From: Peronospora farinosa
Taxonomy: Eukaryota > Oomycota > Peronosporomycetes > Peronosporales > Peronosporaceae
Assembly (NCBI GenBank): GCA_947646735.1
Contig: CANTFK010000994.1
Span: 868,001 to 932,000 of the forward strand
Reading direction: 5' to 3'
DNA: 64,000 nucleotides
Shown: piece after piece, positions 7,355 to 12,112 of the stretch
How positions within the stretch are numbered: the stretch's first letter is position 1
Layout: every line of letters starts with the position of its first letter
Program-made: the position numbers and the translations under genes
Notes under the pieces: generated by a model
What the model was told of the DNA's origin: nothing
Seen by the model: the letters and a program-made list of their open reading frames with translations, nothing else
Database searches by the model: none

Positions 7355-9072
7355 ATGGCTACGCTCCAGGAGCCTAATCTCCAAGCTATTGACTTGACTC
7401 GCCTGTCTGATACTAGCTCTACTATCTCGAATTCTAGTGTGTGTTTGGGAGAGAGGGACGATAACATCGATAGTTCGATATCCTAAGCAGCTTGATAGTC
7501 CTGCATTGCATGAACACGCAGAAGCTACTTTACATCTGACCTCGTAGGTGAATTCGATTGTATACTTATACAAGTGCAAATAGAGGGAACAAAAGGAAAC
7601 CGAATGGATTACTGACTGCTGACGTAATCATTCTTGATATTTTTGTGTATAGTGACGTGAAGATATTTATCAACACGTGCATTGCTTTCTTGGGTTCAGG
7701 AGTATTAGGTCTTCCGTATGCATTTCGACAGTGCGGTATTTTGGTACTGACTTGCAATAACGACTTGTCAGCATTTCAATAATAATATTATTGTCTTTGT
7801 TCTATTGCTAATAATAATATTAATTGTTTTGTAGACGGGGCTACTGACGTTAATGGGTGTAGCTGGAGTTACAACCTATGCTATGATGCTCGTGGTGCAG
7901 TGCAAATACAAACTCAAGCAACAAGGAAAAAATGTCACAAGTTATGGAGAAATTGGGTACTTTGCAATGGGTTCTGCTGGCTCAGTGATTGTAAATACGG
8001 CACTTGTAATCTCTCAAATGGGATTCTGCATTGCATGTAGGTATTTGAATACTATCGGTGCATCAAGACAAGTGCTAACTTCTTTTTCTTTCTTACTTAT
8101 TTTTTTTGCTGGTGGTTTGTTTTTAATGTAGATTTGATTTTCATTGCTTCCAATGTTAATCAGTTCTTGAATGTGTCAAAGCAGCTGATTGTGTTGGTGT
8201 GTGTGCCACCACTTGTTGGATTATCACTGCTAAAACACATGCGAGAGTTGGCTTATGTGGCATTATTTGCTGACTTTATGTGCATCTTTGGACTTTTGGT
8301 CGTGCTTAACATTGATCTGACTTACATGGAGTATGATCACGACGATATTGAAGTTATAGGCGTCGTGTCTGCAATACCTTTTTTCTTTGGAGTGGCCAAC
8401 TACTGCTTCGAAGGAGTGGGAATGGTGCTATCGTTGGAAAACTCGATGCGGAACAAAAGAAATTTTACGCCTATTCTTGTCAGCACGGTTGTGATCATTT
8501 CGTCACTGTATGCTACGTTTGGAATCTGTGGATACCTTGCTTTCGGCAACGAAACCAACGCTGTCATTACCCTCAACTTTGATGGCGGCGGCAGTTTGGC
8601 CATTCTTGTCAAAGTTTCTCTGTGTTTGGGCCTCTTCTTTACGTACCCAGTGATGCTGTTTCCAGTCTTTGAGGTTTTGCAACCTATGATGGTACGCGGC
8701 CAAAGGCTTGAAAGCCCGCAGCCTAGTCAAACGAAAGGTATAATTTTGCGCGTGGGTATCGTGTTGGTCACTGCGGTTATCGCGGCTGGAATTCCAGGTA
8801 CAAAAGGTGCTGTCAGTTTGTTGTGAATTATCTCGTTGAGCCTAACGTTGTGTTTCCTGACAGATTTTGGTTGGTTTATTTCGTTCGTTGGCTCAACATG
8901 CTGCTCGTTGCTGGCCTTCATCTTGCCAGCATTCTTTCACTTATGCCTATTTCGTGATGAGCCGCCGACGTGCACAAATCGACTGCGGCAGTTTTTTCTG
9001 TGTGCAATGATGGTTTTAGGGTTTGTCATGCTTTGTGCCGGAGGTTTTGAGGTAATCGACAAGGTACTCTAG
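7355..9072 (+). CDS. Amino-acid/auxin permease family transporter (SLC36-like)
   Basis: Multi-pass proton-coupled amino-acid transporter of the AAAP family. TM1 carries INTCIAFLGSGVLGLPYAF, the diagnostic motif. Predicted exons: 7653-7743, 7835-8036, 8132-8797 and 8864-9072, with introns 7744-7834, 8037-8131 and 8798-8863; all joins keep phase. Upstream, an exon ending at 7543 (donor GTAGGT, intron 7544-7652) joins in phase to give HLTSDVKIF. The extreme 5' part is uncertain: ATG 7355 is the best start, but reaching the 7543 exon needs a frame change. A 38-nt GT-AG intron inside about 7430-7480 would provide it, but that is short for this genome. About ten membrane segments are visible. The substrate cannot be told from sequence. 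Confidence 0.85.
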
Positions 9073-9675: not shown

Positions 9676-10263
9676 TTAAGTCTGCTGCTTCATCTTTGTC
9701 TCGTCGAGCAGCAAGCTGTCCATAATGCTTGCAGACACATAATCTGCACCTCCTTCCTGAATCTCCACTCGTGGACTAAACTTACCTTGTTCTGCCAGCT
9801 TCAATTCAGCCATAGCCAAACTAGCTTCAGCATTGCGTCGTCCTTCCTTCGGCACCTCATATTCGGCTGTGGACGCCAAGGAGACGCTCGAACGTCCTCC
9901 AGAGGTTTGTTGCGACATTGATGCACTAGTGGACACAGATGTTGCCGAGTGGGTCACTGTATCACTTGACATAGCACTAGATGTCGTCCCTGTTGGCTCC
10001 AAAGGCCGCCGCAAACTACCGACACTTGTGAGCTCCGAACGGATTTCATTGAGCTCCTCAATACCTCGCTGGAAATTGCGCTGGAGTTTGACAAGATCGT
10101 TATCATTGGTAACATTGAAGAATTCCTTTTTGGCTCGAAGAATAGCACCCATTGAACGACCAGTATAGAGACCGATGAAACGTCCGAGTTTCGGTAACTC
10201 GCGCCGTCCAAGCAGAAAACTTGCTGCCGTTACCGTCACGAAAACTGTACCCCAATGAACCAT
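9676..10263 (-). CDS. TatA/TatB-like Sec-independent translocase protein, probably mitochondrial
   Basis: A 195-residue single-exon protein. Residues 4-19 are one short membrane span (GTVFVTVTAASFLLG). There follows the Tat hinge, GRRELPKLGR, with Gly19 and Leu-Pro at 23-24; an amphipathic helix at about 25-49 (FIGLYTGRSMGAILRAKKEF); then a charged helix at 55-80 (LVKLQRNFQRGIEELNEIRS) and a Ser/Thr-rich tail. This matches the TatA/TatB plan of short TM, G-x3-LP hinge, amphipathic helix and variable tail. The helix with I/L-x-x-IR-x-E recalls the nuclear-encoded mitochondrial TatB-like proteins of plants. Oomycete mtDNA is known to encode a TatC-type protein (ymf16), so this could be its partner. 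There is no long presequence. A bacterial origin by transfer, or a look-alike small membrane protein, is less likely but possible. Confidence 0.65.
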   Translation of the reverse strand: MVHWGTVFVTVTAASFLLGRRELPKLGRFIGLYTGRSMGAILRAKKEFFNVTNDNDLVKLQRNFQRGIEELNEIRSELTSVGSLRRPLEPTGTTSSAMSSDTVTHSATSVSTSASMSQQTSGGRSSVSLASTAEYEVPKEGRRNAEASLAMAELKLAEQGKFSPRVEIQEGGADYVSASIMDSLLLDETKMKQQT

Positions 10264-10325: not shown

Positions 10326-10423
10326 GGAGGCGTTATATATCCCCCACGTTGTTGTTTATCAGCCCCACCCCAATTTTATATAAATTTGATTTTGTAATGA
10401 GGTGGGGGATATATAACGCCTCC
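10326..10423. repeat. 98-bp element with perfect 22-bp inverted terminal repeats
   Basis: Positions 10326-10347 (beginning GGAGGCGTTATATATCCCCC) are the exact reverse complement of 10402-10423, with a 54-bp AT-rich spacer. It lies in the 370-bp gap between the TatB-like start (10263) and the 3' end of the aldehyde dehydrogenase gene (10634). It could be a miniature inverted-repeat element, or a hairpin in a 3' UTR or promoter. The rest of the gap shows nothing else. Confidence 0.85.
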
Positions 10424-10633: not shown

Positions 10634-12112
10634 TTATTTAGCGTAGGGACAGTCCACACCATTCATCTCAACGTAAACAGACTTCAATTGCGTCCACGAG
10701 TTAATACCTGCAAGACCATTTTCACGGCCGACACCAGATTTCTTGTAACCACCCCATGGGGTCTCCACAGGAGCGAGATTGTAGTTGTTAATCCATGTGG
10801 TACCAGCCTGCAGCTCATCAATCATTCGATGTGCACGGGTGATATCCTTCGTAAAGACACCCGCCGACAAACCAAAGATTGTATCATTAGCACGGGCTAA
10901 TACCTCCTCCTCAGTGTCGAACGGCAAGATGCACATGACCATGCCAAAGATCTCTTCACGTACAATAGCCATCTCATCGATACAGTCCACAAAAATAGCC
11001 GGTGTTAAAAAGAATCCGTTCTTGGTGGCTTCTGACGGCATCATACGTTGACCTCCACCTTTTAGTAAAGTAGCACCTTCCGCCACACCCTTCTTGATAT
11101 AGCTCTGCACAAGCTTCATGTGTTTCTCATTAATCATCGGACCAATGTCCGTGGTTGGATCCAATGGATCTCCAATTCGTAACTTTAGCGTGCGTTCATG
11201 CATACGCTGTACAAATTTCTTAAAGATTGCCCTCTGCACAAACACTCGCGTGCCATTTGAGCACACTTGCCCCGAGGAGTACCAATTGCCCATCATGGCT
11301 CCTGCTACAGCTTCTTCAACATCAGCATCTTCAAAGACAATCAAAGGTGATTTGCCTCCAAGTTCCATCGTCACTTTCTTCAAATGCTTGGCAGCTTCAG
11401 TATAAACATTCTTCCCAGTCTCCACAGAACCTGTAAACGACACCTTGGCAATATCTTCATGTTGCACGAGTGCTTTTCCCGTCTCACTTGCTCCTAGTAC
11501 AACATTAAAAACACCTTCAGGTACTCCTGCTTCAAGATAAGCTTCAGCTAAAATCAAAGCTGTCAGTGGTGTCTCCTCCGACGGTTTGAACACCATCGAG
11601 TTCCCAAATGCCAAAGCAGGTGCAGATTTCCATGCTGCGCTTTGTAACGGATAATTCCAGGCTCCAATACCTGCTGTAACGCCCAATGGTTCTCTCTTAG
11701 TATAAGCCCAGCTACCTCCAGTGAGCTCCAAATGCTGCCCACCAATTGATGGACACACGCCTCCATAGTAATTTAAACAGTCCGTAGCACTCAAGACATC
11801 AGTAACCTTGGTCTCAGCAATGGGACGACCGGTATCCAGCGTTTCCAGCATCGCAATCTCATCCGTTTGAGCCGTCAGAATGTCCGCAGCTTTGCGCAAA
11901 ATTGCACCACGTTGCGCTGGACTCAGACGCTTCCAATGGCGCTGAGCAGAGCGACCAGCAGCTACAGCATCGTCTACTTGAGCCTTATCGGCAGCTGAGA
12001 AGGATGTCTCGGGTGCACGAGTAGCGGCATTTAATAGAGTAAATGATTGGCTCAGAGCCTTTGGGGTTACGTACTTGCCATTAATAAACGACTTAACCAC
12101 ACGCGCAGCCAT
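10634..12112 (-). CDS. Aldehyde dehydrogenase, ALDH9/betaine-aldehyde type
   Basis: A 492-residue NAD-dependent aldehyde dehydrogenase. It most resembles the 4-trimethylaminobutyraldehyde/betaine aldehyde dehydrogenases, which act in carnitine or betaine formation. Visible landmarks are the catalytic Asn in GAWNYP (152), the general-base Glu in TMELGGKSP (250), the nucleophile Cys in GQVCSNGTRVF (284) and the EEIFGMVM region that binds NAD ribose. It is a single exon of normal length, with ATG at 12112. The second residue is Ala and there is no targeting peptide, so it is likely cytosolic. It is divergent from the ABC ATPase (140 bp between starts). The exact substrate is inference. Confidence 0.92.
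   Translation of the reverse strand: MAARVVKSFINGKYVTPKALSQSFTLLNAATRAPETSFSAADKAQVDDAVAAGRSAQRHWKRLSPAQRGAILRKAADILTAQTDEIAMLETLDTGRPIAETKVTDVLSATDCLNYYGGVCPSIGGQHLELTGGSWAYTKREPLGVTAGIGAWNYPLQSAAWKSAPALAFGNSMVFKPSEETPLTALILAEAYLEAGVPEGVFNVVLGASETGKALVQHEDIAKVSFTGSVETGKNVYTEAAKHLKKVTMELGGKSPLIVFEDADVEEAVAGAMMGNWYSSGQVCSNGTRVFVQRAIFKKFVQRMHERTLKLRIGDPLDPTTDIGPMINEKHMKLVQSYIKKGVAEGATLLKGGGQRMMPSEATKNGFFLTPAIFVDCIDEMAIVREEIFGMVMCILPFDTEEEVLARANDTIFGLSAGVFTKDITRAHRMIDELQAGTTWINNYNLAPVETPWGGYKKSGVGRENGLAGINSWTQLKSVYVEMNGVDCPYAK

Follow-up and report, generated by a model that had tools for sequence, protein, structure and literature searches.

The window is a 64,000-nucleotide stretch of a Peronospora farinosa contig and carries, at positions 9676 to 10263, a gene for a TatB-like protein. 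The original prediction had this interval and the protein length of 195 residues exactly right; the gene itself lies on the minus strand, and the corresponding frame of the plus strand is interrupted by stops. It is located on a 998-kb contig of the 46.9-Mb assembly, and so is encoded in the nucleus, as plant-type mitochondrial TatB is. When the Albugo orthologue was compared with all six frames of the assembly, it matched this locus and no other, which makes the gene single-copy within the reach of that search. The closest database relative of the protein (P0001) in a protein search is from Peronospora effusa, with 98% identity. The gene and its parts are:

9676-10263, minus: TatB-like coding sequence of 195 codons and a stop in a single exon, found once in the genome
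10255-10257, minus: codon of residue 3 (His), roughly one turn of the helix from residue 6
10246-10248, minus: codon of residue 6 (Thr), where TatB has a conserved transmembrane (TM) Glu
10210-10254, minus: short, weakly hydrophobic N-terminal helix, residues 4-18
10192-10209, minus: hinge G19-R-R-E-L-P24 (G-x3-LP)
10120-10194, minus: basic, modestly amphipathic helix, residues 24-48, which holds G31, G35, R36, G39 and A44
10024-10098, minus: charged second helix, residues 56-80, collinear with plant TatB
9847-10002, minus: variable linker rich in Ser, Thr and Ala, residues 88-139
9706-9828, minus: C-terminal block conserved in oomycetes, residues 146-186 (EGGADYVSASI.DSLLL)

The neighbouring genes encode an aldehyde dehydrogenase (10634-12112, minus) and an amino-acid transporter (ORF 8134-8826, plus). 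Further along are genes for a protein with two ABC-transporter ATPase stretches (PF00005; 12223-14016, plus) and for a CotH kinase-domain protein (PF08757; 14689-16593, minus), which has what by eye looks like a TM segment at its C-terminus. Some 60 bp ahead of the start codon of the TatB-like gene lies a perfect 22-nucleotide inverted repeat (10326-10347 and 10402-10423, 54-nucleotide spacer); a surrounding stretch of 113 bp was found once in the genome, and so does not belong to an evident repeat family.

With only three residues before its N-terminal helix, the protein has no room for a presequence. The helix is weakly hydrophobic, with a mean Kyte-Doolittle value of 1.71 at residues 5-19 (E. 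coli TatB 2.77, TatA 3.07), and residues 20-48 carry a net charge of +6. Amphipathicity is only modestly above chance: the helical moment of residues 24-48 was reached by 5.5% of 5000 shuffles and that of residues 56-80 by 2.1% of 5000. AlphaFold2 predicted two helices, residues 4-17 and residues 19-83, interrupted at residue 18; confidence was low (mean pLDDT 57.7, pTM 0.18), and we judged this model too weak for a fold search. What raises the Tat-like architecture above chance is conservation: G19, L23, G31, G35, R36, G39, A44, Q65, L71, I74, R75 and E77 are invariant in alignment A5, a chosen subset of 37 of the 54 oomycete-type proteins and 20 of the 76 plant proteins. The gene had been described as carrying the full TatA/TatB plan, and the weakly hydrophobic TM segment, the G-x3-LP hinge, the modestly amphipathic helix and the second helix are indeed in place; "full" nevertheless does not hold here, since the TM glutamate is missing: the conserved polar TM residue (E8 in E. 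coli TatB) is T6.

Orthologues are found across the oomycetes: among records with named sources they come from Phytophthora, Peronospora, Hyaloperonospora, Bremia, Plasmopara, Peronosclerospora, Nothophytophthora, Pythium, Globisporangium and Lagenidium, as well as from Albugo, Saprolegnia, Achlya, Thraustotheca and Aphanomyces. Phytophthora, Saprolegnia and Albugo, where a look for orthologues had been proposed as a check, all carry the protein. Family members were collected in three protein searches, with 37 matches at E≤0.01 among 400 candidates, 46 matches at E≤1 among 7999 scored candidates, and 516 matches at E≤10 among 7996 scored candidates, of which the best 120 were considered. A midpoint-rooted tree of 32 of the 54 family proteins splits the Saprolegniales, Albugo, the Pythium-like genera and the Peronosporaceae, a grouping by lineage as expected from vertical inheritance; support is full on only 8 of its 29 inner branches, and the long Albugo and Saprolegniales branches meet, which drew a warning from the tool. 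Ten family records (P0006, P0009, P0022, P0039, P0042, P0052, P0015, P0019, P0033 and P0021) are publicly labelled sulfatase or sulfatase-like, peroxin-14 or RxLR effector candidate.

The oomycete family is homologous to plant mitochondrial TatB across the TM segment, the hinge and both helices. We built an oomycete-only profile from 42 N-termini of a 45-protein set (P0034, P0036, P0037, P0038 and P0043-P0047 are outside the set, and P0024, P0026 and P0029 were also left out of the profile). It matched all 76 plant mitochondrial TatB-type proteins at 47.3-60.5 bits, with the best of 2420 block-shuffled decoys at 14.9. In the reverse search the plant profile scored the window protein at 42.1 bits and its best decoy at 30.3; of the 45 oomycete proteins, 44 scored higher than that decoy and only P0029, which is truncated at the N-terminus, fell short (26.0 bits). 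Alignment of the two profiles with hhalign gave a probability of 98.9 and a score of 92.2 over 84 columns, while column-shuffled controls stayed at or below 19.6 in 60 of 60 cases. The plant proteins were retrieved with the aid of a plant query sequence; the profiles tested contain database sequences only. The plant mitochondrial TatB-like profile that had been suggested as a check is matched above decoys by all oomycete proteins of the set but P0029.

The likeness to plant mitochondrial TatB, which is nucleus-encoded (Carrie et al. 2016, as cited in PMC5855863 and PMC6251230), takes in an N-terminal TM segment without a preceding presequence, the G-x3-LP hinge, two helices, a nuclear gene and TatC in the mitochondrial DNA (mtDNA). 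R36, G39, A44, Q65, L71, I74, R75 and E77 of the window protein are shared with the plant helices. The hinge reads G-P-K-D-L-P in plants and G-R-R-E-L-P in the window protein, and all 20 plant rows have E at the TM polar site, where the window protein has T. The similarity is, as far as these comparisons indicate, confined to the N-terminal domain: the C-terminal regions of the oomycete and plant proteins scored 8.8 in hhalign against up to 19.0 in 80 shuffled controls, and C-terminal cross-searches brought none of 69 plant and none of 45 oomycete proteins above the best decoy. A shared C-terminal motif that the full-length alignment had hinted at was not supported by these hhalign and decoy tests.

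The link to bacterial TatA/B is weaker, by the same kinds of comparison, than that to plant mitochondrial TatB. Pfam and NCBIfam scans of the window protein matched no Tat model. A search with PF02416 (TatA/B), also part of the original prediction, matched none of 25 oomycete members at E≤10 and nothing in the whole P. farinosa genome; this failure is insensitive rather than refuting, since a comparable scan of plant mitochondrial TatB-type proteins matched only 1 of 10 (E 0.02). A precomputed database column gives PF02416 for many plant TatB-type proteins. The NCBIfam TatA/TatB models gave weak matches in 8 of 10 oomycete members, with the N-terminus in register and all below cut-off (best E 0.0019), and TIGR01410 (tatB) was among the matches of 27 of the 57 A5 members (37 oomycete, 20 plant). 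The order of TM segment, hinge and helix in bacterial TatB (E. coli, TIGR01410) is thus common to the window protein, with weak, in-register profile matches, but oomycete scores lie under every curated cut-off.

Against a six-sequence TatA/B set, the oomycete profile reached an hhalign score of 28.5 (probability 59, 31 columns; controls ≤17.9 in 60 of 60) and the plant profile 47.4 (controls at most 16.3). Single E. coli sequences scored poorly: TatB and TatA obtained 5.0 and 2.5 bits with the oomycete profile (ranks 107 and 308, below many decoys), and 8.4 and 3.4 bits with the plant profile (ranks 195 and 832, not above decoys). Among solved structures, neither the window protein nor the oomycete alignment found more than chance matches; with the plant alignment, the top matches were a chloroplast TatA (E 0.015) and a bacterial TatB (E 0.17).

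In bacterial TatB, E8 lies near the N-end of the TM helix and hydrogen-bonds TatC T208, and TatC Q215 bonds the main chain of TatB E8 (PMC13323110); a polar cluster of TatB and TatC is also described in PMC10197872. Petru et al. 2018 list the TM Glu as a conserved signature of mitochondrial TatB (PMC6251230). At this site, where plant-type mitochondrial TatB has a Glu held to be essential, the window protein has T6. Across A5, the 37 oomycete rows hold E (11), Q (5), D (1), T (19) and S (1), against E in all 20 plant rows. The N-terminus is intact in 47 of the 54 oomycete-type proteins, and several of these 47 repeat a species or carry no species name. In them the replacement goes together with a change at residue 3: where residue 6 is T or S (27 proteins), residue 3 is H (23), Q (3) or N (1), and where residue 6 is E, D or Q (20 proteins), residue 3 is S (14) or T (6). 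Among named records, T/S6 sequences belong to Phytophthora and the downy mildews, and in the 32-protein tree they form one clade of 17 rows (support 100/98) that holds all Phytophthora and downy mildew rows. The replacement of Glu is therefore most simply a single event, and as one event on the tree the coupling of the two residues is without statistical replication. We hypothesise that the shift at residue 3 compensates for the change at residue 6.

The TatC partner is known from published mtDNAs. The gene ymf16 is present in Peronospora effusa mtDNA (PMC6264045), and Pfam identifies its product as TatC in each of 10 Phytophthora species (PMC7224479); two Aphanomyces mtDNAs carry an import gene named secY (PMC5093560), a name that has been used for tatC in Phytophthora (PMC7224479). 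In the P. farinosa assembly a tatC search gave one noise match (16.9 bits, stops inside) and a COX1 search three short fragments, none intact, so the assembly seems to be without mtDNA. The COX1-like fragments (L003, L004 and L005) contain stops in two of three cases, and are possibly nuclear copies of mtDNA. That a TatB-like protein is nuclear in a lineage with mtDNA-encoded TatC, as originally proposed, is supported by the profile and hhalign comparisons, with TatC taken from the literature. The arrangement resembles that of the jakobid Andalucia godoyi, in which a nucleus-encoded mitochondrial TatB stands beside an mtDNA TatC (PMC7050145). A. godoyi also has an mtDNA TatA, and oomycetes do not figure among the listed TatA-bearing lineages.

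The Rieske iron-sulphur protein is the cargo that the original prediction had in mind. Its ORF in the P. farinosa genome (L006, 1291-2010) has S-K-R-A-F, a KR form of the motif, just before the TM segment. Animals and fungi use Bcs1 for the Rieske route; BCS1_N and AAA_lid_BCS1 domains were matched nowhere in the P. farinosa genome in searches run without a positive control. In the account of A. godoyi, which has Tat, BCS1_N proteins are reported from other protists and not from Andalucia (PMC7050145). Arabidopsis does not survive knockout of mitochondrial TatB, and in this plant the Rieske signal is of importance when complex III is assembled (PMC5855863). Petru et al. 2018 found the Rieske arginine motif uncorrelated with Tat presence, and their export test could not decide the Tat question (PMC6251230), so that Rieske as a Tat cargo is something that we infer. 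A working two-part Tat translocase in oomycete mitochondria, perhaps with a Rieske cargo, is plausible.

We favour the reading, with a probability of about 0.7, that the window protein is a TatB orthologue of plant type which acts in the mitochondrial inner membrane and pairs with TatC, probably for the Rieske protein, through a rewired contact. Starting from the homology, distribution and residue switch observed here and from TatC in mtDNA as reported in papers, we infer location, topology, partnership, cargo and rewiring as follows. The protein would be made in the cytosol and imported without a classical presequence. Its one short N-terminal helix would anchor it in the inner membrane, with the N-terminus in the intermembrane space and the helices in the matrix, and paired with mtDNA-encoded TatC (ymf16) it would act as the receptor of folded proteins, the likeliest of them being the Rieske iron-sulphur protein of complex III. 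At the site equivalent to that of the Glu which bonds TatC in bacteria, Phytophthora and the downy mildews have Thr or Ser (residue 6) in place of Glu, with a larger polar His, Gln or Asn one turn off at residue 3, and the contact between TatB and TatC would be rewired and not lost. A more specific version we put forward only tentatively: the TatBC translocase of these organisms would have given up its TM acid and moved the contact from residue 6 to residue 3, and mtDNA TatC would have changed to match.

The strongest alternative is exaptation: a TatB descendant in the Peronosporaceae that no longer pairs with TatC and has taken another role in the inner membrane or in complex III assembly, with TatC left alone or decaying. 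That all 27 intact sequences of the window type lack the TM Glu would fit it, as would the oomycete-conserved C-terminal block, which has no detectable counterpart in plant TatB, and the fact that most Tat-bearing eukaryotes have TatC only. We nevertheless consider it rather unlikely: the helix region shared with plants is still constrained after the Glu change, Thr and Ser are still polar and occur in the same clade as the larger polar residue 3, and tatC is kept in the mtDNAs of P. effusa and 10 Phytophthora species (PMC6264045, PMC7224479). Convergence of an unrelated protein on a short TM segment, an LP hinge and helices is very improbable; the absence of PF02416 from all 25 members, the weak TM hydrophobicity with only modest amphipathicity and the limitation of plant similarity to the N-terminal domain could be read in its favour, but the collinear 84-column match to plant mitochondrial TatB is far above shuffled controls and includes the second helix, which convergence on TM segment and hinge would not give. 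The database labels are almost certainly mistaken, even if seven source records bear them (sulfatase for P0006, P0009 and P0022, peroxin-14 for P0015, P0019 and P0033, RxLR effector candidate for P0021), since sulfatase and peroxin-14 families are absent at E≤10 from the matches of the 25 of 54 members scanned, these seven included, and an orthologue kept from Saprolegnia to Peronospora is unlike the behaviour of an effector.

The TatB orthologue that we favour had been presented as the missing TatA/B partner. There was such a gap: Table 1 of a 2011 survey lists TatC for P. infestans with TatA/B not identified, and the same survey reports one nuclear TatA/B in the brown alga Ectocarpus (PMC3097184). 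The gap has been closed in print since 2018, when Petru et al. described nucleus-encoded homologues of mitochondrial TatB "in stramenopiles (like oomycetes)", alongside a mitochondrial TatC, naming no species in the passage concerned (PMC6251230), so the discovery itself is not new. Their homologues, found with plant TatB as query, are very probably the same family; their text, on which this comparison rests, gives the TM Glu as conserved, whereas the clade of the window protein is without it. Searches of open-licence PubMed Central for oomycete or Phytophthora TatB turned up no description of the Glu loss.

This analysis adds a verified TatB-like gene in a downy mildew. It also shows that the oomycete TatB-like family escapes curated models and goes under wrong names in some public records, and it documents a natural exchange at a TM site whose residue touches TatC in bacteria. 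Should the Rieske protein turn out to travel by Tat in oomycetes, this would set them apart from animals and fungi with their Bcs1. The replacement of Glu makes the mitochondrial TatB-TatC contact directly testable from existing mtDNA sequences, and a shift of this contact with accompanying changes in TatC would, if true, be an event of mito-nuclear co-evolution in a protein translocase.
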